64,000 bases of DNA, taken from contig OZ020313.1 in assembly GCA_963971305.1 (NCBI GenBank), forward strand, positions 27,690,602-27,754,601. Direction: 5' to 3'. The notes beneath the pieces are model-generated. The model made no database searches, was not told the origin of the DNA, and saw only the letters and a list, made by a program, of their open reading frames with translations. Source of the DNA: Arcuatula senhousia (lineage: Eukaryota; Mollusca; Bivalvia; Mytilida; Mytilidae). Shown here piece by piece: positions 4,057 through 59,000 of this stretch; positions within the stretch are counted from its first letter, which is position 1; the number at the start of each line of letters is the position of its first letter. A program made the translations under genes and the position numbers.

Positions 4057-5320
4057 TGGATGGAGTTCTTCTAACATTTTATGATAAGTCTTGAAACTTT
4101 GGAAATACATTGATTATCGTGACGTCGATGACGTTATATCGTAAGGGGGAAAAATGAGCTTTTCACTAATAAAGGGGGAAAAACTGGACTGATCCTATTT
4201 TCCCCCGGGGGAAAAACTGGATCGATCTCATTCTTCCGGGGGGAAAAACTGGATCGATCCAGATTTTCCCCCCGGAAAAACTGGCATGGGGGAAAATCTA
4301 CAATAGAACACCGGTTCAATTTTACAAATTCTTGATGTATATTTCATATATGAACAAAAAAATTACCAGCACATAAATAGCTGTTCACGCACCACGCTTG
4401 TAAATTGAAACACCACGGAAAAATGAAACCCACGGAGAAGTGAGAAGGTGGTACATCAATCTCCTTCGCAGTAGGCTTATCCTTCCCGACAAATATAGGT
4501 CAGGATTATCCCACTGCTACAGGTTTGTATGAATTCCATCAAGATTCTTGATATTTTTTTTTTTAGTTTAATAAATTTTCAAAATTTTCCTAAAGTTAGC
4601 CATGAAAACACCAAATTTTCTGTAATATTTTTTTTCTTAGAATAATTAATTCAATTTGTTGTAACACCGGATTAAATGAATACGCACTATTTTAAAGTGA
4701 AGTAAAGTAGAAGTATTTAGGCTATACTATTAATAAACAATGTGGTTGTGAAATGCATTTTGGTATATGTGAGTACTTTTCATGGTTTTTTAATTTAGAG
4801 AGTAGGGGTCAAAAAGAGGTCATTGAAAAGAAGCCTGGGTTGTCACAAAGCCTGGTGCAGTGATAAGTGTACGGACCGTTATAGACGGGAACTGGAACTG
4901 TGAGGAGTTTGGTGGTACATGTATACATTTTGTACTTCTATTCAAATCCTGCGTCCAAAATGTGCTAAGTTTAAGTCGCTCTTCAACAAGTAGCTGTGTC
5001 TTTCTCTATATAAGACATTAAAGCTTGTGAGCAAACTTGAAATAGAGGTTAAACTTAAGGTAAACTGACTAAAGACGTATTGAAAAAAAAATTGTAACAG
5101 TTATTTTAGTTGCTTTAAGATGGGATTATTTGAATGTGTGTATACCCTTCCGTCCGGATTGGCTTATGGAGTTCACGTTTACAGTGAACATTTACTCTGA
5201 CAATCTAAATTGTTTTTTTTATTGTCTTCATAGTATTAACAGATTGATCCAACTTAAAAGAACAATATGCATTTCAACAAACAAAATAAGCACCCTTTGG
5301 GAGTACATGTATGTAAACCC

Positions 5321-5826
5321 CACAGGTACTTGTGGACAGGACCCCATTTGGAGCCCCATTAATGTTCACCCCCCCTTTTTTCTTGACTTATATATTTTTT
5401 GTCATTCTATCTTTACACTATATCAGACATAACATTATTTCAAGGAATATATGGGTTACTATCAAAAAGCGAGCTTCCCGAAGGGAAGCGAAGCGAAGGT
5501 AAGTCACTCTACTTTGTTTACATTGGGGTACCACATAGGAATTCTGCTCAATTTTCTAATTAAAAGTAACTTTGTACTTACCAAACTGTACATCGGCTAA
5601 CTCCAAATACATTATTCTTTCTGAAAATAGTCATTTAAAGTCACTATAAGCAACATTACCGGCGTAATTGACAACATTTGTACGATAATTTCTATAGTTT
5701 GAACGCCATTCGAGTTGAAAGAACGGAAGCAGGTATCGCGGCGCCACCTGTGAAAATCGATTTCTTCCGAATGGAAATGCGGCCTACGTACAATATAGAG
5801 AATCTCGAGTATTTTCGCGGATTTTC
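5321..5826 (+). repeat. Left terminal inverted repeat of the P-like transposon
   Basis: Matches the reverse complement of 12463-12966 with few differences. The outer end CACAGGTACTTGTG is itself nearly palindromic. Inside is a small hairpin, CTTCCC-GAA-GGGAAG, near 5473-5490, followed by AAG|GTAAGT near 5498, a strong splice-donor match reading inward. Thus a 5' UTR intron could start within each TIR. Just beyond the homology is TATAAAAA (about 5840), some 50 bp before the transposase ATG. Confidence 0.85.
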
Positions 5827-5892
5827 CTTGGCGCAAAAATATAAAAACAGAAAACTATTTTCCAACCCATTTTGGAAGCAAAGAGTCACATA

Positions 5893-8819
5893 ATGAGTGA
5901 AATATCACAAAGTTCTCTGTTAAATTGGTTGTTTTTAAATTTAGATGAAGGTAGTTGCGATGAATTTGTTGATTTGAATCAAATTAAGAAAAAAATTCAT
6001 TTTAAAACATCAAGCACAGCAATTGGAAATTTGATTGGAAAACTCTTTACAAAATGCAAAGTGAAAAAGGGCAGATGTCTGGATGACTGGACTAAAACAA
6101 CTCAAAGATATTATGGATTAACATGGAAAATTTCCTCCGATATCAAAACTCAATCTGAATCTGAATGTACAATTACATTTGAAAATTTGTCCAAAACTAT
6201 ACCCAATGATTTTTTCATAATGAAAAAAACCCTCACCAGTTATACTATTGGGTTTTTGACAGGCGAAGTTATTAATGGTGTCAAAACGATTCTTGAAATC
6301 ACACTGAATGAGGATTATAGCTGGAAACTACTTGTAATGGGTAAAAAGTGTGACTTGAAATATTTAAATGTTGGTGAAAAATACAATTTTTTAAGTATTT
6401 TTCCATTAATCAGGAGTTTGATTTATTGTAAAGGTACTACTGTTATTGATGACACAAAGTCAAAATATGAATTTATCACTGAAAATGTTTCCAAAATAGA
6501 TGATGAAAATTCAAATTTCATAAGATTTAAGGCAAGATCTTGCTGCCAAGTTCTCCCTTTCAAGAGTTCACAAAATGTTAAATCAACATGTAAAGACTGT
6601 ATATTTCTTGGAAAGTCAGATGTTACTTTACAATTACCTATTCCAAAAGCTGAAAATCATAAAGAAATGTCAAATGAACAATCAGGTGCTGAGAATGAAA
6701 TTAATCCAAAGGTTACATATGCAAATGTACCTATATGTAAGACATCTGAACAGGAAAACCCTGTTGAACACGTTGAACTTTCCCATAATGATAATACTGA
6801 TATGACAATAATCTTAAATAAAATATTCCCTGAATGTGGTGAAAAAATGAAATTATTTTTAAATTCTCAAAAAATGGCTTTGGAAAGAAACCCAAACGGT
6901 AGAAGATGGCCTAAGGACATTATTCGTTTGTGTTTAACTTTGTGGTGTCGCTGCCCTAGAGGGTACTCTGATTTAAGATCCAGTAATTTCTTGATATTGC
7001 CTTCTGAAAAACAGTTACAGCGGTTTAAAAACATTGTACATCAAAATGCTGGAATTAATAAAGAGTCACTTCATTGGATGAGTAACGAGGCAAAACTGAA
7101 ATGCTTACCACCTGAAGGATATCGAGGCGGGCTAATTATAGATGAAATGTCTATCCAGCCTGATTTACAATTTAGAAAAATAAATGGTGAAATTGAACTG
7201 ATTGGCTTTACGGACATATGTCCAGAAGCTCTTGTGCTGGAAAAAATGAAAACAAATAAAAATGAACGTACTTTAGCAACTCATGTGCTCCAATTTGTTT
7301 TTCTTGGATATACAGGTTTCAGGTTTCCCTTTGCACATTTCCCATCCCATAATGCTTCTGGACATGAACTCTATCTGTTACTATGGAAGGCTGTTAAAAT
7401 GTTGATAAATTTTGGATTTAGCATAGACTACATAAGTACTGATGGTGCACAAAGTAACAGGGACCTTTTTAAGCTTCTGGTTCCAGATTTTAAATCCTGC
7501 GACCCTAAAACATGTTCATTTAACAACATTTACAAATTTGGAGATGAAAAAATTTCATTTATTATGGATATCTCCCATGTTATAAAAAAAATTCGCAATA
7601 ATATTTTGAAGAGTGGCACTGATCCTGGATGTAAAAGACATTTACATTTACAAAATCTGTATATTGAGTGGAGACATTTTCGTGAAGCATATACTTGGGA
7701 CATTTCATCTCATCCATTTCCTATTCACCACAAATTAACGCAAGAACATTTTTACTTAACGTCTGAATTAAAGATGAGGAACTATTTAGCAGAGGATGTT
7801 TTAAATGATGAAATGCTTCATTTAATGAAGGAGTTCAAAATGAGTTTAAAAAATGACCAGAATAAACTTGATGCTACAATTCAACTTTTAGAAAATACAA
7901 GCATACTAATTCGAAACTTCAGAGATAGGAGGCCGATAACATTTTCAGAAGATGATAGACTAAAACAAAATCATGAAGCAATGAATTTTTTTATCAGTTG
8001 GGAAAATGAAATTAAAACAAACATGAACATCAAGAACAAAGAACGCTGTCTGATATCGCATCAAACAAGAGAGGACATTGTGTCCAGCATTCTAGGGTTC
8101 GAGGAATTGTGTAAAGAACACTTTAAAAAGACCCATGGTTCGATAATTCCCTCAAGATTGAACAGTGATGTTATAGAAAATGTTTTCTGCCAGCAAAGGA
8201 CTCTACACAATGGTGCTAACACCAACCCTACATACCTTGGCTATTGTAACTCTTTGAACTCAGTTATTCTTGGGCAGACTGTGATTTCAAGGAAATCCAA
8301 CACTGGAGGTGACAGGGAGGCAGCTCAACTGAAAGAAAGTAATCAGAAAGTAAGTTGTTTAGTCATGTTGGTTAATATGAAAGAAGTAGTATAAACTAGA
8401 AAAAAAAGCTATATTGAGATCATCATCAAAAACCCAGAGGTCCTAACAAGCACATATATGTACAGTGAAACCTGAATAAACCGAAAACCCTAACCCTGTC
8501 TAAACCAAGATGAATTCAAAGTCCAGTTTAAACTATGCCATTACATTTATAATCTGTATAAACCAAACCCCTGTCTATATGGAACAATTCCTTCAGTCCC
8601 AAATGGATTTGGTTCAGACAGGTTCACTGTATTTATTCTTTTTTTTCAATCGACATGTAAATGTATGTAAAATTTGATAATTATCATAAAAGGGGGGGGG
8701 GCGCTTTTGAAAAAAAATTGGTTGCTTCATTTATATAGGAAATCACTGAACTGGAACAAAGCCATTCTAAGTCTGTAAATGCCCCCTTTTTTCAGACATC
8801 CTGGATCCATCATCACTGA
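5893..8819 (+). CDS. P-element/THAP9-like transposase with RFX-like N-terminus, two exons
   Basis: Start ATG 5893; an upstream in-frame TTG at 5872 is not a likely start. Exon 1 is 5893-8349. AAA|GTAAGT at 8350 and ATATAG at 8738 join in frame to exon 2 (8739-8819), giving about 845 aa; read-through would give 833 aa ending at 8394. Residues ~8-80 resemble an RFX winged helix (IGNLIGKLF .. QRYYGLTWK). A C-C..C-x2-C cluster lies at 217-236. The P-type core follows: RRWPKDIIRLCL (~337), LPSEKQL (~369), DEMS with Asp417, STDGAQSNR with Asp517, DISHVIKKIRNN (~559), and SDVIENVF with Glu762 followed by NTNPT. Asp417/Asp517/Glu762 are the inferred RNase H-fold triad. A C-terminal block usual in this family seems to be missing and may sit in the helicase gene. 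Confidence 0.8.
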
Positions 8820-9201
8820 TTATCTTAATACAATCATGTTTTCTTTTTATAAAAGCAGGAACATTTTAAAACAAGTGTTTATTTAATGTTCCTGATAAAA
8901 GCTATGGGCAACTGTTTTTGTATGATAATTGATTTATTTTCCTAAATATATTGATATGGGAAAAAAGAAACTTAAAAGAAAAGAAAATCAGATGTGTTAA
9001 AGTTCAACTTGACATAAAAAAGATTACAATAAACAGGGTACTGTATTTAAAAAAAATACTTTAAGATACTGTACACTTTGTTCAAGTAAAAAATTACAGG
9101 CACAAAATGTAAATTTTTTTAAAATGCCTTTTTGCTCTTAATAAAATGTAATATGTAATTAAAAAAAATATATGTATAGAAAAAAACATACTGTAGTAAA
9201 T

Positions 9202-12200
9202 TTACATGCACATCGGGCAAGTAAATTGTGCCTCTTCCTTCTGTATTTCTTCCCAGGCCGTATCATCTTCCAAGTTCACACATTGACGGTGATACCACCC
9301 TTCACAAATGTCACAAGAAATCCATTGTTCTCCTTCAACATAACCTTTACTACAAATTCCACAGTGTTCATTATCTTCCTGCTCCTCTTCCTGTCTTTTC
9401 TTTGACCTTTTTCCTTTTCCTTTCCCTTTCCCTCGTGTGCATCGTCTCTTACCGGCTGATTTTGATGTTTTTGTTGTTACTTTTGTTTTGTTCTTTGCAG
9501 CTTGTGCAGGAAAAATCGACTGCTGAGCAGAAGAAACCAGTGAACCAGGCGGTTGCTCTAAAGAAGGCTGTTGAACAGGAGAAGCAGGTGGATGGTCAGA
9601 GGAAGAGGCCTGTGTTACAGGAACTGTTTGTAAACCACTAGTACCTGCTCCTTCAGATGGTAAGGGACTGTCATATTCCATAACACCTTTCATTAGGATC
9701 TCAATGATAGTACCTTTGTTTGCCTGTGTTGATATCTTTTCAAGTTTTAAGTCTTTACACAACAATATTAAATCCTTCTTAGTAAATGAATTTGATCTAT
9801 CATGAAAAAATTTTTTGTTTTGAATTAATTCAGATTTCATTCTCAAAAATGACACTTGTTTGTTTACTGATTTGTCTCCATTATAAAATTTCATATCAAA
9901 ATTTTTACTAGATTTCTTAATTTTTTCAGATACTTTTTTCCTGAGGGCTTTTCCTTTCTCTTTCCGCAACAATGTTAAAAAGTCCCTTCGGAATTGACTC
10001 AAACTTACTCTCAAAAACAAATCCACAACCAAATGAAATAAAGTAATGCAATTTTCACATGAAATAACTAAATCCGCCATAATTTTTTCAACATCATCTT
10101 CACTATCAACCGAAGGTTTTGACTTGGATACACAATACATCCATGCTTCAAATAATTTGGAGTCATTTAACAATCTGTCTTTCACTACTGCATATAGGTT
10201 TTTTCCAGAAACAACTAAGTTCAAATGGGTTAGTTCTTCCCTGCACCTTAATTCCAGAGTTTGAAAAAAGCCAAAAGCATAATCTGACACATTTGTAAGT
10301 CCTTCCCGACTATTTTGTTTTCTTTTAGTTTCATATAGAGAGGAAGGGTCAGTGCATGACTCACTGAGTTCATCATATGTGGCACATAAACTAGTAAGAA
10401 TGGTCATTTGATCCTGATCAGTGATGATCTGATTTTTCTTTGCTTTTACAAACAAAGAGTTTCTTATCCTTTTGGATAAGTTGTGTTTCAGTTTTGCTAA
10501 CACATACCCACTGACATATCTTATTTTGCTTTTTCCACTCGAGTCAATGTCAGCATCAACTGCAGGCTTCACAATTGGTTTAGGTGGATCGAGTTTTAGG
10601 TGTGACTCTAAGTTCAATAAATATTGACTTTGTAAATAAAATAATATGCTAACAAGAAGTTGGTAAATTGGTCCATCCAAAATTTGTTGATAATGTATCA
10701 GTACATTTGTTGCATGCGATTTGTAATCATTTGAATTTAGATATGCATTAAACTTTATAAAATAATCATTCCTATGTTTTTGAGAGAAAGTTTCTGTACC
10801 CTCTGGAAAACAATTTAGGCCGACATCATCCATTATGGACTCCTGCTGGGTAAACCAGTTACAAAATTTATTTGGATTTAAATAAACAATTTCTTTGAAT
10901 TTTAAAATATGATTTTCATTTGGTGTGTCTAAAAATTCAATAATTACATTCTCGAAAGCCTTCTTCCAATCTAATTCTTCATTTACTACACCTGTTTCTC
11001 TAAATAAGTCATCAATAAACTGCACATGTTCAATTTCAGAATCTGAAAAATCTGAGTCCCCTTCACAGTTTTCATTATATGGTTCATAATGATCTGAATC
11101 TGAAGCAGTACATGTATCACTGTCTGAAAATGTTTCGTTTGCTAACTTTTGACTATTACGACAACATGAAAGATCTTCAACAACATTACCAATGGAAAAT
11201 GAGTCATAAAAATTATAAAGTATCTGTGGATGTTTCTTACAGTAGTGTTTTTTGAAGTTTACTACTCGCAATCCCTTAATTGACACAGCTCTCCCAATAG
11301 CTACACCTAGCTGTCCAGGTTGTGAAATAAACTGACAATTCACTGTGACATTCTCCAAACTCATGCCCTGGGCTTTATGGATTGTAATTGCATATGCAAG
11401 TTTCAAAGGTATTTGGACTCTTTTTGCCAAAAGTGCTTTGTCGACAGGGTCATAAGTTGAAAATGATTCTGGTAAAAGTAAAGTTGTAACAGTTTTTTCA
11501 CTAATGACAAATTTAACTTGCACTGAAGTTTGATTAATTTGTGTCACTGTTCCACGAAGGCCATTAACCAGCACATCACTTATATTTTTGAGCAAAAGTA
11601 CTTGACACCCGACTTTTAATGCTAAGTGTTTTGGTGCTATTAGTTGTTTAAGGTAATAATCCGAACCTGAATCAACTGATGTATACATTTTTTCCTCTCC
11701 CTGAAATGTCTGAAGCTTGTTGTAGTTAAATGTGTCAACATCAAAATTTCGTGCAAAAAGTTGAATGCTACTATTTTCATTTTCAGTTGGTCGCTCAAGA
11801 GATTTTATGAATGCGATTGTCAAATCAGAGGGGTCACCAGCTTCTATTTCATTTATAGCCTGAATTAACTGTGGCTCATCTTGCCTGTGAACTATATGTA
11901 AGTTTATTTTATGTGGGAAATAACTTTCAAACCAGGATAGTCTAAAACAAGCAGTGCCTGGGTCACCATATATCTCATTTGCCACTGGGGGGAGTTGCAT
12001 GAAATCCCCAACAAGTATCACCTGAATATTTCCAAAAGTAACTTCAGAATTTCGAATTTGTTTACATAATGTTTGAACTTGATTGAGAACTTTGGCACTG
12101 ACCATTGAAATTTCATCAACAATCAACGTTTCAACTGATAAAATATTGGTTTTATTTTGTAGGTACCTCTCGTCTGTCCTCACTAAATGTACTATCTCTT

Positions 12201-12444
12201 CATTTAGATATCGTCCATCACCTACACCAGACCATTTGTGAATGGTTTGGGCCCCTAGGTTTTCATAATGAGTGCCAGCAATCCCCGTCGAGCAGACTAA
12301 ACTAACGTTTCTTTTTAGTTTAAACCTCATGTATTCCACTATTTTCCTTACCAGGAATGATTTACCTGTCCCCGCTTGCCCTGTAATGCACAGATTATGC
12401 CCTTTTAGGGCTAGATCAAACGCAAATAACTGATCTTCATCCAT
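9202..12444 (-). CDS. Pif1-type DNA helicase with SAP-like and PHD finger domains
   Basis: The first ATG is at 12444 (context AAAATGG), 1,080 aa, with no intron evident. Residues 22-29 GQAGTGKS (Walker A), 107-114 LIVDEISM (Walker B), 146-154 GDFMQLPPV, 187 HRQ and 354-360 TIHKAQG are Pif1/RecD-like superfamily 1 motifs. The usual ALSR near motif VI is VAIGRA here. Residues ~440-470 are acidic and serine-rich. Around 642-721 the blocks RYVSGYVLAKL and NSREGLTNVSD resemble the C-terminal part of P-like transposases. Residues ~885-916 look weakly like a SAP DNA-binding motif. A Lys/Arg-rich stretch (~997-1017) precedes a C4HC3 PHD finger (~1028-1079). The product probably unwinds DNA during transposition; the PHD finger could bind histone tails. 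The fusion is unusual and function is inferred. Confidence 0.8.
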   Translation of the reverse strand: MDEDQLFAFDLALKGHNLCITGQAGTGKSFLVRKIVEYMRFKLKRNVSLVCSTGIAGTHYENLGAQTIHKWSGVGDGRYLNEEIVHLVRTDERYLQNKTNILSVETLIVDEISMVSAKVLNQVQTLCKQIRNSEVTFGNIQVILVGDFMQLPPVANEIYGDPGTACFRLSWFESYFPHKINLHIVHRQDEPQLIQAINEIEAGDPSDLTIAFIKSLERPTENENSSIQLFARNFDVDTFNYNKLQTFQGEEKMYTSVDSGSDYYLKQLIAPKHLALKVGCQVLLLKNISDVLVNGLRGTVTQINQTSVQVKFVISEKTVTTLLLPESFSTYDPVDKALLAKRVQIPLKLAYAITIHKAQGMSLENVTVNCQFISQPGQLGVAIGRAVSIKGLRVVNFKKHYCKKHPQILYNFYDSFSIGNVVEDLSCCRNSQKLANETFSDSDTCTASDSDHYEPYNENCEGDSDFSDSEIEHVQFIDDLFRETGVVNEELDWKKAFENVIIEFLDTPNENHILKFKEIVYLNPNKFCNWFTQQESIMDDVGLNCFPEGTETFSQKHRNDYFIKFNAYLNSNDYKSHATNVLIHYQQILDGPIYQLLVSILFYLQSQYLLNLESHLKLDPPKPIVKPAVDADIDSSGKSKIRYVSGYVLAKLKHNLSKRIRNSLFVKAKKNQIITDQDQMTILTSLCATYDELSESCTDPSSLYETKRKQNSREGLTNVSDYAFGFFQTLELRCREELTHLNLVVSGKNLYAVVKDRLLNDSKLFEAWMYCVSKSKPSVDSEDDVEKIMADLVISCENCITLFHLVVDLFLRVSLSQFRRDFLTLLRKEKGKALRKKVSEKIKKSSKNFDMKFYNGDKSVNKQVSFLRMKSELIQNKKFFHDRSNSFTKKDLILLCKDLKLEKISTQANKGTIIEILMKGVMEYDSPLPSEGAGTSGLQTVPVTQASSSDHPPASPVQQPSLEQPPGSLVSSAQQSIFPAQAAKNKTKVTTKTSKSAGKRRCTRGKGKGKGKRSKKRQEEEQEDNEHCGICSKGYVEGEQWISCDICEGWYHRQCVNLEDDTAWEEIQKEEAQFTCPMCM

Positions 12445-12462
12445 TTTTGACAATTCAGCAGA

Positions 12463-12966
12463 AAATTCCGCGAAGATACTCGAGATTCTCTATATTGTAC
12501 GTAGGCCGCATTTCCATTCGGAAGAAATCGATTTTCACAGGTGGCGCCGCGATACCTGCTTCCGTTCTTTCAACTCGAATGGCGTTCAAACTATAGAAAT
12601 TATCGTAAAAATGTTGTCAATTACGCCGGTAATGTTGCTTATAGTGACTTTAAATGACTATTTTCAGAAAGAATAATGTATTTGGAGTTAGCCGATGTAC
12701 AGTTTGGTAAGTACAAAGTTACTTTTAATTAGAAAATTGAGCAGAATTCCTATGTGGTACCCCAATGTAAACAAAGTAGAGTGACTTACCTTCGCTTCGC
12801 TTCCCTTCGGGAAGCTCGCTTTTTGATAGTAACCCAAATATTCCTTGAAATAATGTTATGTCTGATATAGTGTAAAGATAGAAAGACAAAAAATATATAA
12901 GTCAAGAAAAAAGGGGGGTGAACATTAATGGGGCTCCAAATGGGGTCCTGTCCACAAGTACCTGTG
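12463..12966 (-). repeat. Right terminal inverted repeat of the P-like transposon
   Basis: Reverse complement of 5321-5826. It carries the same outer near-palindrome, hairpin and inward-facing AAG|GTAAGT donor. The helicase ATG lies only about 20 bp inside its inner edge, so transcription must start within this repeat. Confidence 0.85.
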
Positions 12967-13399
12967 ATATATACCAAATATCATATCTGTATATGAAATA
13001 TATTGCATATGAAACTTTATAAACACATGAAACTTGACATTTCGGGTGTTGGGTAGAGAATGATTAATTCATGAGACGATCTCCCGCACTAAGTGCTGGT
13101 CACCTGACCATCACTTACGTACCAAGTCACATGATCTAATGAATCGTTACTCTATACTTAGTCTCGATCACCCAGACGCTTATCATTAGATGATCACTAC
13201 CTTGGTAGTATGAGTTTGGGTTCGAGATCGAAACGCGGAAAATTATTATTCCAGTTTGCAGCTGTACCCTACCATATCCATTATCTTATTCAAAATAGTT
13301 TTTAGACCCACCCTTTTCAAGTCAAATGGTCGAGTCCTTGATACTTCATTGCTTTAAAATTTTAAAAGCTTATATAAGTTACAGTCATTTTCTTAATTT

Positions 13400-13506
13400 A
13401 GGCATTTTGTTAAATGACTGAAAATTTTAGGCATTTTATAAAATGCCGACCGATTTTAGGCATTCTATAAAATGACTAAAATCTTCAGTCACTTAACAAA
13501 ATGCCT
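13400..13506. repeat. AGGCATTTTGTTAA foldback, copy 1
   Basis: The block AGGCATTTTGTTAAATGACTG is mirrored by its near reverse complement ending at 13506, with smaller palindromes (GGCATTTTATAAAATGCC) between. It recurs at 19462-19568 in unit 2. It could be a mini foldback element or the end of a DNA transposon. The ORFs across it are unlikely to be genes. Confidence 0.55.
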
Positions 13507-25062: not shown

Positions 25063-27559
25063 TTAAACCAGCTTCCAAATCTTGAAAGATGACTGTGCTT
25101 CACGTTTCTTTCTAAGACCAGATTTCAAATTTGTATTTACGTTTTTGAAAGATGAAAGTGCATTACGTTTCTTTCTCAGACCAGAGTCCAAATCTGTATT
25201 GACGGCTAAAGTAACTGGAAGTGCTTCACGTTTCTTTCTCAGACCAGCTTCAAAATCTGCATTGACGGCTAGAGTAACTGGAAGTGCTTCACGTTTCTTT
25301 CTCAGACCAGCTTCAAAATCTGCATTGACGGCTAAAGTAACTGGAAGTGCTTCACGTTTCTTTCTCAGACCAGAGTCCAAATCTGCATTGACGGCTAAAG
25401 TAACTGGAAGTGCTTCACGTTTCTTTCTCAGACCAGAGTCTAAATCTGCATTGACGGCTATAGTAACTGGAAGTGCTTCACGTTTTTTTCTCAGACCAGA
25501 GTCTAAATCTGCATTGACGGCTATAGTAACTGGAAGTGCTTCACGTTTCTTTCTCAGACCAGAGTCTAAATCTGCATTGACGGCTAAAGTAACTGGAAGT
25601 GCTTCACGTTTCTTTCTCAGACCAGATTTCAAATTTGTATTAACGTTTTTGAAAGATGGAATTGCATTACGTTTCTTTCTCAGACCTGAGTCTAAATCTG
25701 CATTGACGGCTATAGTAACTGGAAGTGCTTCACGTTTCTTTCTCAAACGAGCTTCCAATTTTGCAATGACGCTTTTGAAAGATGAAAATGCTTCACGTTT
25801 CTTTCTCAGACCAGAGTCCAAATCTGCATTGACGGCTAAAGTAACTGGAAGTGCTTCACGTTTCTTTCTCAGACCAGCTTCCAAATCTGCATTGACAGCT
25901 AAAGTAACTGGAAGTGCTTCACGTTTCTTTCTCAGACCAGCTTCCAAATCTGCATTGACGGCTAAAGTAACTGGAAGTGCTTCACGTTTCTTTCTCAGAC
26001 CAGCTTCCAAATCTGCATTGACGGCTAAAGTAACTGGAAGTGCTTCAAGTTTCTTTCTCAGACCAGCTTTCAAACCTACCTTGGCGGCTTTGATGTCTTG
26101 GAACGCTGCTGTTGAAAAGAAAAAAAATGTAAAACTATTTACACTATTAACAATAAAAACAGTCAAACAGTCTATAGTTATCTAGGAACACGAAGGTCAG
26201 ACATATGGTGGTTACTAGTAATTTACTTTAGTAAAAATAGTATAGGAGATTGTTTTTAATGTAAGACTGACCAACGATAAATCTCATTTATATTCTAACG
26301 TCATTCCAAGTCACCCATAGACTGTTTTTTTATGTCTAACATTATGTTATCAAATAATGATGCGTCTTAATTAAACGAATGCAATAAAATGCAATAGCTT
26401 AAAGATACGGAAAGCGGAAGGTATATTTATACTTCAGACTTCTCTTTTTTTACTTCTGACTTCATTGTTCTTACGTCTATTGTTAAACTACATACCAATA
26501 ACTTAAAAAAATCTATGGAGGAGTTTAAAGATTTGCCGGTTTTATACGCTTAAAATCCTAACTGATATGTATATGGCCTTATGGTTTTAAGAAGCATATT
26601 TTAAGAAGCACATGAACAAACTGTACACTTAGGCCTGCAGAGGGGATATGAAAGAAACAAAAAGGCACCAATTCGAGTGTCAAAAGTCCGAAAGGGCACG
26701 ACAAAAAAAAAACGGTAAACACGAACAAAAACAGAACGCACGAGGAAACATAAAGCACAAATCAACCGAACAGAAATAAACAACGCGAAATCAAGTCGTA
26801 ACAATAGTGAACTCCAGAAGAGTAAGCATTTCTTGCCTGCTTTTAGCATACCTGTCGCGCTCCTAGTATCCAACTAAGTGTGTCAAAACCGGTATAAGGG
26901 ACGGACCATTTAACTTAAGGGGGGGCTTGGTTTTTTGTTTTGGCCAGAAAATTTTTTATTTTGTGAATGCGTCATGACAGAATTTTTATTTTTTGAAAGC
27001 GTCGCGACAGAATATTTTTTTTTTATTATTAGCATTATTTTATATTTTATAATTCTTCTTCAGAATATTTTTTCAACCCTCTGCTGCAAAAATATTTTTT
27101 TCATCAAAAATCATTTTCAAAATATTTTTTTCATCAAAAATCATTTTCAAAATATTTTTTTAGGAAAAAACCAAGGCCCCCCCCTTTCAAGTTAAATGGT
27201 CGGTCCCTAAAGGAAGAAAAAATAAAACTATGACAAACCAACATCTGCACAATGAAACATGAAACAAGATTAAAGATAACTACCATAGAAGCAGTCTTCT
27301 GTTTCTCTATTCACGTTATACCATTCGATTTTGATATAACTTTGAGGTTTTTTGCTTACTTTTTTTTTAAATATGAACATAGGAAAGATTCATTTCTTTT
27401 TAATTTACAATTATGCTGAATGATATCTGAAGAATGTAAAACGTACTAAATATTTATCATCAGATAAATAAAGCTTTACCAAATCTTAAATTATACGATA
27501 TTAAATTTAATTTTCTTACCAAAAACACACAATAGAACAGGGAAAACAAGGCTCCTCAT
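25063..27559 (-). CDS. Secreted multi-copy propeptide, fifteen 21-aa repeats with RKKR sites
   Basis: Two exons. Exon 1 (27559-27520) begins ATG and encodes MRSLVFPVLLCVF, a short signal peptide, then donor G|GTAAGA. Exon 2 starts at 26108 after a pyrimidine tract and CAACAG (alternative NAG at 26105, also in frame) and reads to a stop at 25063; about 361 aa. After a short AFQDIKAAKVG leader come 15 complete 21-residue repeats plus a partial one. Twelve are type 1 (EALPVTLAVNADL..), three are type 2 (..SFKNVNTNLKS or variants); nearly all end in LRKKR, a furin/prohormone convertase site. Cleavage would release 17-residue peptides. There are no cysteines in the repeats. The last repeats are frameshifted (see findings). 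It may be a neuropeptide-like, defence or matrix precursor; I do not recognise the family. Confidence 0.75.
26640..26880 (-). repeat. Interspersed repeat family A, copy 3
   Basis: In the intron of the propeptide gene. Reverse-complement match of 421-600 with the longer 3' extension also seen at 2880-3085 (GTAACAATAGTGAACTCCAG..AGAGTAAGC, CCTGCTTTTAGC). Confidence 0.6.
26896..27209. mobile_element. MITE with GGGACCGACCATTTAACTT termini
   Basis: The left end AAGGGACGGACCATTTAACTT and the right end AAGTTAAATGGTCGGTCCC are inverted, followed inward by G or C runs. The interior is T-rich with repeated TCATCAAAAATCATTTTC. Other members: the outer ends at 29476 and 31145, 37218-37417, possibly the core of the foldback at 32717-33168, and a half copy at about 13312-13340. 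It lies in the propeptide intron. Confidence 0.7.
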
Positions 27560-56058: not shown

Positions 56059-59000
56059 ATGTGTTTAAGAGGTCTGAGCTATTTGCCGATCTGTCTTGTG
56101 TTCAACTCATTGATCACTTTCATAGTGTCCTATGTTATAGCCATATCCAGACACGATGTCAAACCATATTTTCCATACATCAGGTACCGACCATTGTCAT
56201 TGTCTCCCCAATCCTGGCATGAACCTTCCCACGTGGGAGTCAGTTCCTGTCTCTGGTCCAACTGTAACTGGAGCAACTAACTCTGGGGATGGTGTGTCAT
56301 GGGCTGGATGACCTATGGCACATAGCTTGTCTTGTTTAACAGTCCCTGCAGAGGCTTCTAGCCCTATAGTCACAACCATAAACACCCTATTATTGTCATC
56401 AATGAAAAAAAGAAAGTAATCTTTACAGCTACAATGTAGCTAGAATGATAAGTCAATTGAAACATAAACAAATTCAGGATGCAAGTTTAGTTTTTAGTTA
56501 GATTGGAAAAGATACAAACTGCATTTAACAGAATATCTACACACACAAAAAATCACAAATTTGATCCAATTGCATATACATGTAGGTTGAAAAAAAAACA
56601 ATGATTAATCTTATGTTCTCTCATTTTACAGTGACACAGGTACTAAGCCACCAGAGAGCTGTATATTTGGCCAGTTCTTGAATATTTCTGCTGCTTTGGG
56701 TAGGTTTAGTCTTGTGAGGTTTATAATACATTTCTATTTTTATAGACAATTGCTTTATATTTATCAAAAACTCTACTTTATGTATAGAATTTGTCTTAAT
56801 ATATGTGCATCTGCCTGTTCCTCCTTCTGTATGGATTGGTTTACTGAGTATAACTTTTGAATGATGATATAATTGCATGGAACTTACAGTTACAGGTGAA
56901 AAGTTGAAATTGAATAGAGAAATTGGTTTATTGCATATATATAACTGTTGAGCACCTTGGTACAATTTTATTTAACTTAAAACATATTACAAGCTAATGA
57001 CGAAGGAAGAAATCTGAAGATTTGTGGGTCAAAAGGTGAAAGGTCAAGTTCACAAGCTATGTCAGGCAGGTGACCTTGAACCATTATCTTCAATGAAATA
57101 TAAATTAATTCTTGTTATTTCATTTATTTTGTACATTAATTCTTGTTCTTTATACATTATAACACAGGATTCTTTAAAACATTATAACACTGTCACAGGA
57201 TTCTTTAAATAGTATGTACAGTAATGGGTGTTGCCATTTTTTCAGCTGCATGTACTATGTACGTACGTTATAAACTGGTGGATCAGATCTGTATCGGAGA
57301 GGACAGGAAACTTGTCTGTTTAAACAAAGCTGGTCTAGTATTAGGGGTACTTTCTTCTCTTGGACTAAGCCTGGTGGCTAACTTTCAGGTAAATTTTTCA
57401 TATTTAAACAAAGCTGGTCTAGTATTAGGGGTACTTTCTTCTCTTGGACTAAGCCTGGTGGCTAACTTTCAGGTAAATGTTTCATGTTTAAACAAAGCTG
57501 GTCTAGTATTAGGGGTACTTTCTTCTCTTGGACTAAGCCTGGTGGCTAACTTTCAGGTAAATGTTTCATGTTTAAACAAAGCTGGTCTAGTATTAGGGGT
57601 ACTTTCTTCTCTTGGACTAAGCCTGGTGGCTAACTTTCAGATAAATGTTTCATGTTTAAACAAAGCTGGTCTAGTATTAGGGGTACTTTCTTCTCTTGGA
57701 CTAAGCCTGGTGGCTAACTTTCAGGTAAATGTTTCATGTTTAAACAAAGCTGGTCTAGTATTAGGGGTACTTTCATCCCTTGGACTTGCCTGGTGCCAAC
57801 TTTCAGGTATATATGGTCAAAATTGCAAAAAATATTCTACATTAACGCCACAAAATAATTTGAATTATAAATTTTGTCTGCTACTGTATGGTTAAACAGG
57901 ATGTCTATACAAAAACAGTGGTAACATCAATATTGACAAACATGGCAGATCTATAAAAAAAAACAGGCACAAATATTAAGTAACTACAACTGCAATGGTC
58001 CTGATTTTAAGACTCACTTTAAGAGCCACTTTATCTTTATATCTCTACCGCGTGTGCTGCATGTGTCTGAAACTGACTATCCAAACATGCCATAATTGGC
58101 CTCCAACATACAGTTTAACATATGTCAAACGTTGAGCTCAGAGTAGCTTTCATTTTTCAAATATTTTTTTTTTATCAGGAAACAAATGTTGAGCCAGTAC
58201 ATGTGACAGGTGCAGCCATGGTCCTTGGTTTTGGGGTCGTCTATGCGTTTGTACAGACCTCCCTGTCTTATCATATGTACCCAGACTACAACGGAGTTAA
58301 GATCTGCAGAATTAGATTTGTTATCTCAGTTATTGCCCTTGTTGCCATGGTTACTAGTATCCTTTTAAAAATTATTGAACTAGAATAAGCAAAAGAAATA
58401 GGTGGTCTGTTTATTTTGTCTGCAATGTGTTGCAAAAGTCTGTAAAGTACCATATAGAACTCACTTGGATTTTTCCATCACCTTGTACAGAAATTTAACA
58501 TCAGACTTCAGAACCACAAAATTTAAATATTTGAAATAAGAAATACTTACCAATGGTGGATTCAGAGGGGTGCAGAGGGCATGTGATCCAATTGATGAAT
58601 CAGGTGTTCAAATTAGCATTGGTCCGAGGTCCGGGACTCTCAATTCTTTATGAAGGACCTTCTAATTTTCATTGACAAAGGTCCTGGACATGTCAGTATT
58701 TACAATAACTCTTATTGGGGACTTTCAATTTCTTCTGGAGGACCTTCCTTTCTGGACTCCCAAAAGTCTGGGACTTTTTGCGCTCAAATGTTAATTTGAA
58801 TCCCTGTGAATAGTCACAGAAGGCGAAAAAAAGAATCCACAAACTGACTCTTTTTCGTCAATCCATGAATATTGATCATCATTAAAGTAAATGAATCCAC
58901 AGTATCCTTCCTAAGAAAAAATACTGTAGATACTATTACATAGTACATCATATAGGAAAATGTTATATTTTTTTTGTATTATACAATATGTTAAGTGCTC

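Follow-up and report, generated by a model that had tools for sequence, protein, structure and literature searches.

A P-superfamily DNA transposon carrying a transposase and a Pif1-type helicase gene in the bivalve Arcuatula senhousia

The element and its two genes

We analysed a stretch of 64,000 nucleotides of the Arcuatula senhousia genome (contig OZ020313.1, positions 27,690,602 to 27,754,601; hereafter the window), in which positions 5321-12966 are almost certainly occupied by a two-gene DNA transposon of the P superfamily (Table 1). Its terminal inverted repeats (TIRs), estimated at ~505 bp in the preliminary description, align across 508 columns and have the termini CACAGG...CCTGTG. 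Between them lie a transposase gene and a gene for a Pif1-type helicase, which are convergent and separated by 807 bp. Both had been described as intact, and both frames are indeed open.

The transposase matches the Pfam family PF21787 (TNP-like RNase H N, E=1.9e-14) and has an acidic D-D-E triad. D417 of this triad aligns with D230 and E762 with E531 of the P element, and D517 is presumably the counterpart of D303. D417 and D517 are kept in at least 90% of 67 relatives of the transposase; E762 is kept in at least 90% of 29 relatives and is not among the residues at that level in the set of 67, which includes many short rows. With regard to a possible guanosine triphosphate (GTP)-binding insertion in the RNase H fold, the segment DISHVIKKIRNN aligns with DTPHLIKLVRN of the P element. 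PF21788 is listed for some of the relatives and has no match in the window protein. The fold is closely P-like, and three traits of the P superfamily are present, namely the RNase H fold of P type, the acidic triad, and TIRs together with an 8-bp target-site duplication (TSD), the last of these in the copies other than that of the window (see below). The combination of a hAT transposase with an 8-bp TSD, by which hAT elements are recognised, was not found. The protein had earlier been called P/THAP9-like. Of this label the P-type part stands and the THAP part does not: no Pfam THAP match was obtained at E<=1, and the N terminus resembles RFX5.

The helicase matches PIF1 (PF05970, E=4.8e-23), Pif1_2B (E=2.5e-8) and PHD, and all six Pif1 motifs that were sought are present. 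Judging from its superfamily 1B (SF1B) core with PIF1 motifs and its 2B domain, the predicted protein belongs to the Pif1 helicases. Its best match among solved structures is yeast Pif1 (1.9e-60), the match to the Helraiser Helitron protein being far weaker (8e-14). Since the structure model is weak (predicted local distance difference test, pLDDT, 61.6) and the Foldseek matches merely repeat Pif1, we make no claim about the fold of the middle region. A search with residues 400-1079 returned 15 proteins, 14 of them of the window-helicase kind, with Mytilus and Pinctada as the species named; the fifteenth, a weak moth match, was excluded from the alignment. The C-terminal finger is reached by 10 rows of the 15-row helicase alignment, and the Pfam PHD match is above the cut-off in four of the five members scanned (P0100 is below it, with 21.0 versus 24 bits). 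The earlier characterisation of a Pif1-like helicase ending in a PHD finger is thereby borne out, as are all four assignments for which profile searches had been proposed (P-type, Pif1, RFX-like and PHD). Neither an HUH/Rep nor a polymerase domain is among the Pfam matches listed for the two open reading frames (ORFs; for the helicase, 25 of 26 matches).

Table 1. Features of the element in the window
Feature	Positions	Strand	Details
Whole element	5321..12966	.	7646 bp; flanks gtaaaccc / atatatac
Left TIR	5321..5828	+	508 bp; starts CACAGGTACTTGTGGACAGG
Palindrome	5473..5489	.	17 bp, GCTTCCCGAAGGGAAGC; 153-169 bp from element end
Transposase gene	5893..8394	+	833 amino acids (aa), single open frame
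RFX-like N terminus	5896..6135	+	residues 2-81
RNase H N domain	7045..7479	+	PF21787; with D417 (7141-7143) and D517 (7441-7443)
E762	8176..8178	+	within NSDVIENVF; aligned to P element E531
Pif1-type helicase gene	9202..12444	-	1080 aa, single open frame
C-terminal PHD finger	9208..9363	-	residues 1028-1079; PF00628 E=1.2e-7; PHD chains 1we9, 5y20
Conserved middle region	9655..11157	-	~residues 430-930; characteristic of this helicase family; mostly helical by prediction
Pif1 core	11185..12444	-	~residues 1-420; GQAGTGKS, VDEISM, GDFMQLPP, VHRQ, TIHKAQGM, LGVAIGRA
Right TIR	12460..12966	-	507 bp; 98.6% identity to left TIR

Copies and relatives in the source genome

A search of the source assembly (1.036 Gb) with the left end of the element gave at least 52 matches (40 of 63 candidates scored). 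Twenty stretches were fetched, which together with the window represent 14 large-copy loci and six short copies, ~97-99% identical to the window element across the aligned parts. A perfect 8-bp TSD flanks 15 of the 16 two-ended copies (12 large, four short), with L015, L026 (single end), L028 (one end incomplete) and L022 falling outside this count. TSD base counts reveal no clear base preference. In 10 of the 12 large two-ended copies both genes lie between TIRs and within a perfect 8-bp TSD, which is the kind of support that the preliminary description had called for; the two exceptions are the window copy, which has no TSD, and L019, in which nearly all of the transposase is deleted. Both genes are visible at 12 of the 14 large-copy loci (L015 retains the transposase start only, and L019 is the other exception), and four of the loci, namely the window, L011, L012 (transposase of 830 aa) and L014, have the two ORFs at essentially full length. 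In three short copies (L023, L024 and L025) the outermost 175-179 bp form a foldback. A fourth, L027, is 198 bp long and is flanked by a perfect TSD although it includes just 28 bp of one end. From such short copies we infer that the sequence required in cis is probably near the element tips.

Three of the copies deserve separate mention. The window copy, whose flanks (5313-5320 and 12967-12974) agree at four of eight bases, is the sole one without a TSD among the 16 two-ended copies, and rearrangement or recombination between copies may be the source of these flanks. On the 102-kb contig C531 (L022), element matches are found at both ends and the flank is the same as that of the C8 copy (L020); because the flanks are identical, L022 probably represents the L020 locus a second time on a different contig, perhaps from another haplotype. 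Finally, C2:30114489-30124674 (L009 and L010) contains a 2.5-kb internal direct duplication with no evident microhomology at the junction.

The pairing of the two genes extends beyond the window family. The transposase search of the genome, with 54 of 183 candidates scored, gave at least 70 matches at 49 merged loci, of which 35 lie outside the window family; the helicase search, with 43 of 914 scored, gave at least 46 at 32 merged loci, 19 of them outside. The occurrence of the two genes in separate elements had been named beforehand as evidence that would speak against the pairing. Instead, 17 of the 19 outside helicase loci have a transposase relative no more than 15 kb away (175 bp to 11.1 kb), every one convergent. 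The binomial tail for this proximity, ~1e-48, assumes uniform and independent placement and so overstates the case. Helicase sequence was also detected by tblastn in 10 of 12 fetched transposase loci, drawn from the 18 outside loci that had no helicase in the genome search. Altogether, the pairing is found at no fewer than 27 of the 35 outside transposase loci, a count of loci rather than families that includes several near-identical copies. At 20 of the 27 the helicase match extends past residue 500 into the middle region. The remaining seven (C9:53.85 Mb, C11:27.89 Mb, L029, L030, L032, L038 and L042) match the Pif1 core or its edge only, so their membership in the window helicase family is less sure.

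The layout of the pair is convergent in L031, L034, L035, L037, L040, L041 and L043. L036 (with L044) and L042 represent an interlocked form, in which helicase exons flank a transposase on the opposite strand; GT and AG mark the borders, and introns are predicted there. In L038, N-terminal pieces of the helicase are on the opposite side of the transposase, which may reflect a head-to-head arrangement or a nesting within an early intron.

The histories of the two genes also appear to be linked. Transposase and helicase distances correlate (r=0.76 for 14 loci, r=0.43 with one locus per family). In FastTree phylogenies the two genes agree on the branching order of L034, L035/L043 and L037/L041, L036 pairs with L042, L040 joins the Pinctada proteins, and the window joins Mytilus proteins; the helicase tree is without L030, L032 and L038, which are too short, and deep transposase nodes are weak. 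The Pinctada proteins P0020 and P0101 have locus tags ~2,250 apart. Relatives in Ptychodera, Priapulus and coral were found for the transposase only, and we predict a helicase partner in these animals. Neither protein had a confirmed relative among the viral contigs and prokaryote genomes searched. We read the element as a member of an old P-superfamily lineage with two genes that has diversified, and not as the product of a single capture.

Variants among the copies were counted at 11 of the 14 large-copy loci, shared variants being those present in two or more copies. Synonymous and nonsynonymous counts are 17 and 2 for the transposase and 19 and 12 for the helicase among shared variants, and 29 and 43 and 41 and 58, respectively, among private ones. 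All four sets are below the neutral site ratio (p from 1e-10 to 5e-5, mutation bias left uncorrected), and we therefore read them as the mark of purifying selection that would have acted on both genes in the line ancestral to these copies.

Elsewhere in the window, short imperfect palindromic direct repeats with 29-bp spacing are found ~430 bp outside the element (13397-13506). A repeat array open on both strands, with units such as LRKKREALPVTLAVNADLDSG, occupies 25063-26185, and an ORF built of repeated units like LNKAGLVLGVLSSLGLSLVANFQVNVSC is present at 57224-57895.

Possible roles of the helicase

The helicase is very likely a selected part of the element and probably takes part in how the element moves or multiplies. 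There is good support for cut-and-paste movement through the P-type transposase, with an 8-bp TSD: this protein would bind the TIRs, excise the element and insert it with an 8-bp target duplication, while its RFX-like head may recognise the element ends. Of the roles considered for the helicase, the likeliest follows excision: with the sister or homologue as template, it might drive the DNA synthesis that restores the 7.6-kb element in the donor gap, its PHD finger possibly tethering it to histones. In other words, cut-and-paste would yield an extra copy, and a Pif1 helicase supplied by the element could make the copy-back of 7.6 kb likelier and thus lead to copy gain. P elements are a model for the copying of excision gaps by host repair. 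In Drosophila without POL32, PIF1 aids the repair of a P{wa} gap, and Drosophila PIF1 also promotes break-induced replication (accessible part of PMC8951532, citing Kocak et al. 2019). For the helicase, a role in copying the element back into the donor gap seems to us somewhat short of an even bet; the overall explanation that we favour, an autonomous two-gene P-type element with a helicase aiding this step, is about evenly balanced.

A number of observations weigh against such an explanation. According to the accessible part of the P element review, P elements are repaired by host homologous recombination or non-homologous end joining, with BLM and with no helicase of their own. There are about a dozen large copies rather than hundreds, and the duplication on C2 may be ordinary host repair. 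For the helicase, the ratio of nonsynonymous to synonymous polymorphism (pN/pS) is 0.17 in shared and 0.37 in private variants, which is no clear difference (Fisher p 0.064). The pairing has its exceptions too: no transposase was detected near the helicase loci C3:49389996-49393043 and C10:36070526-36071800, no helicase was found by tblastn in two of the 12 fetched transposase loci (L033 and L039), and L029 is placed differently in the two gene trees, with weak support. Moreover, outside the window family TIRs enclosing both genes were detected at only two of 15 loci, L041 (TIRs of 289 bp, seven of eight TSD bases matching) and L031 (TIRs ~74% identical, no TSD). A low-stringency search found no TIR in L034, L040 and L043 and just a 15-bp match in L037, and none was found for L036 with L044.

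Alternatively, the helicase might have a RAG2-like role, working with the transposase to open or remodel the ends or the target chromatin via its PHD finger, with cleavage or insertion depending on it. In RAG-like transposons, too, the accessory gene is convergent and encodes a PHD finger at the C terminus (accessible part of PMC7204232). The correlated gene distances are likewise what partners would show. However, the P element transposase is not known to need a helicase in vitro, and the window transposase is closely P-like in fold. Although we consider a RAG2-like role unlikely in itself, as an explanation it is nearly as good as gap copy-back. More improbable is replicative movement: instead of aiding the repair of a gap, the helicase would drive strand displacement of the element or the copying of its excised form. 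Pif1-like helicases do serve rolling-circle elements, and there is the Helraiser match noted above, but the listed Pfam matches include no HUH/Rep or polymerase domain, and TIRs with 8-bp TSDs suit cut-and-paste. It is very improbable that the helicase is captured cargo which spreads with the element and has no role. Transposons do acquire genes, and the two helicase loci that lack a detected transposase might be taken in this sense; the pairing at most related loci, the correlated distances, the apparent purifying selection and the position of the transposase between helicase exons at two related loci all argue against it. The chance nesting of two unrelated elements, or an assembly artefact, at which the TSD-less window copy might hint, has a negligible probability and is rejected for the family because the whole two-gene unit recurs on many contigs at the high identity given above, with TSDs outside its TIRs.

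If gap copy-back by the helicase is accepted, one may go further and imagine a branch of the P superfamily, spread across animals, that turned cut-and-paste into effective copy-and-paste by means of its own break-copying helicase. The transposase and the Pif1-PHD helicase would then have been an obligate coevolved pair since early bilaterians, and P elements devoid of a helicase would rely on the PIF1 or BLM of the host at that point. This broader scenario is doubtful.

Comparison with known systems

Academ elements are TIR transposons with a helicase domain, which is a superfamily II helicase combined with a different transposase. The P superfamily itself is known, while a long-kept helicase partner has, as far as tested, not been described: no P-type element with a helicase was found in the literature searched, coverage of which was limited and Repbase/Dfam being outside the search. 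The accessible part of the P element review names only the host Bloom helicase, and the word helicase does not occur in the zebrafish THAP9 preprint. In contrast to the Drosophila P element and THAP9/Pdre2, the window transposase is without a THAP match and has an RFX-like N terminus. The TIRs of ~508 bp compare with 31 bp in the P element (P element review, accessible part) and 13 bp in Pdre2 (zebrafish THAP9 preprint), and the length of 7.6 kb with 2.9 kb in the P element (same review), the second gene here being the one for the Pif1-PHD helicase.

Like Helitrons, the element carries a Pif1-like helicase. We nevertheless rejected Helitron cargo as its origin, and the distinction from Helitrons drawn in the preliminary description stands: the element has TIRs and 8-bp TSDs, the listed Pfam matches contain no HUH/Rep domain, and among solved structures the helicase is nearer to yeast Pif1 than to Helraiser. 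With cellular PIF1 helicases it shares the core motifs and the 2B domain, but adds to them a middle region of ~500 residues and the PHD finger.

The RAG-like (RAG1L-RAG2L) transposons are similar in having a convergent transposase and a PHD-ending accessory gene between TIRs, and differ in their 5-bp TSD, compared with 8 bp here (accessible part of PMC7204232). Furthermore, the accessory protein in our element is a helicase and not a Kelch propeller, the transposase is P-type, and the Pfam matches listed for the window proteins include neither RAG nor Kelch. If our interpretation is true, an element with its own Pif1 helicase would make gap copy-back directly testable through the removal of one gene, and the naturally paired proteins of the family lend themselves to studies of coevolution and of the structure of complexes. 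RAG1/RAG2 would then no longer be the single case in which a transposase has a convergent partner with a PHD finger, the present element being the second.
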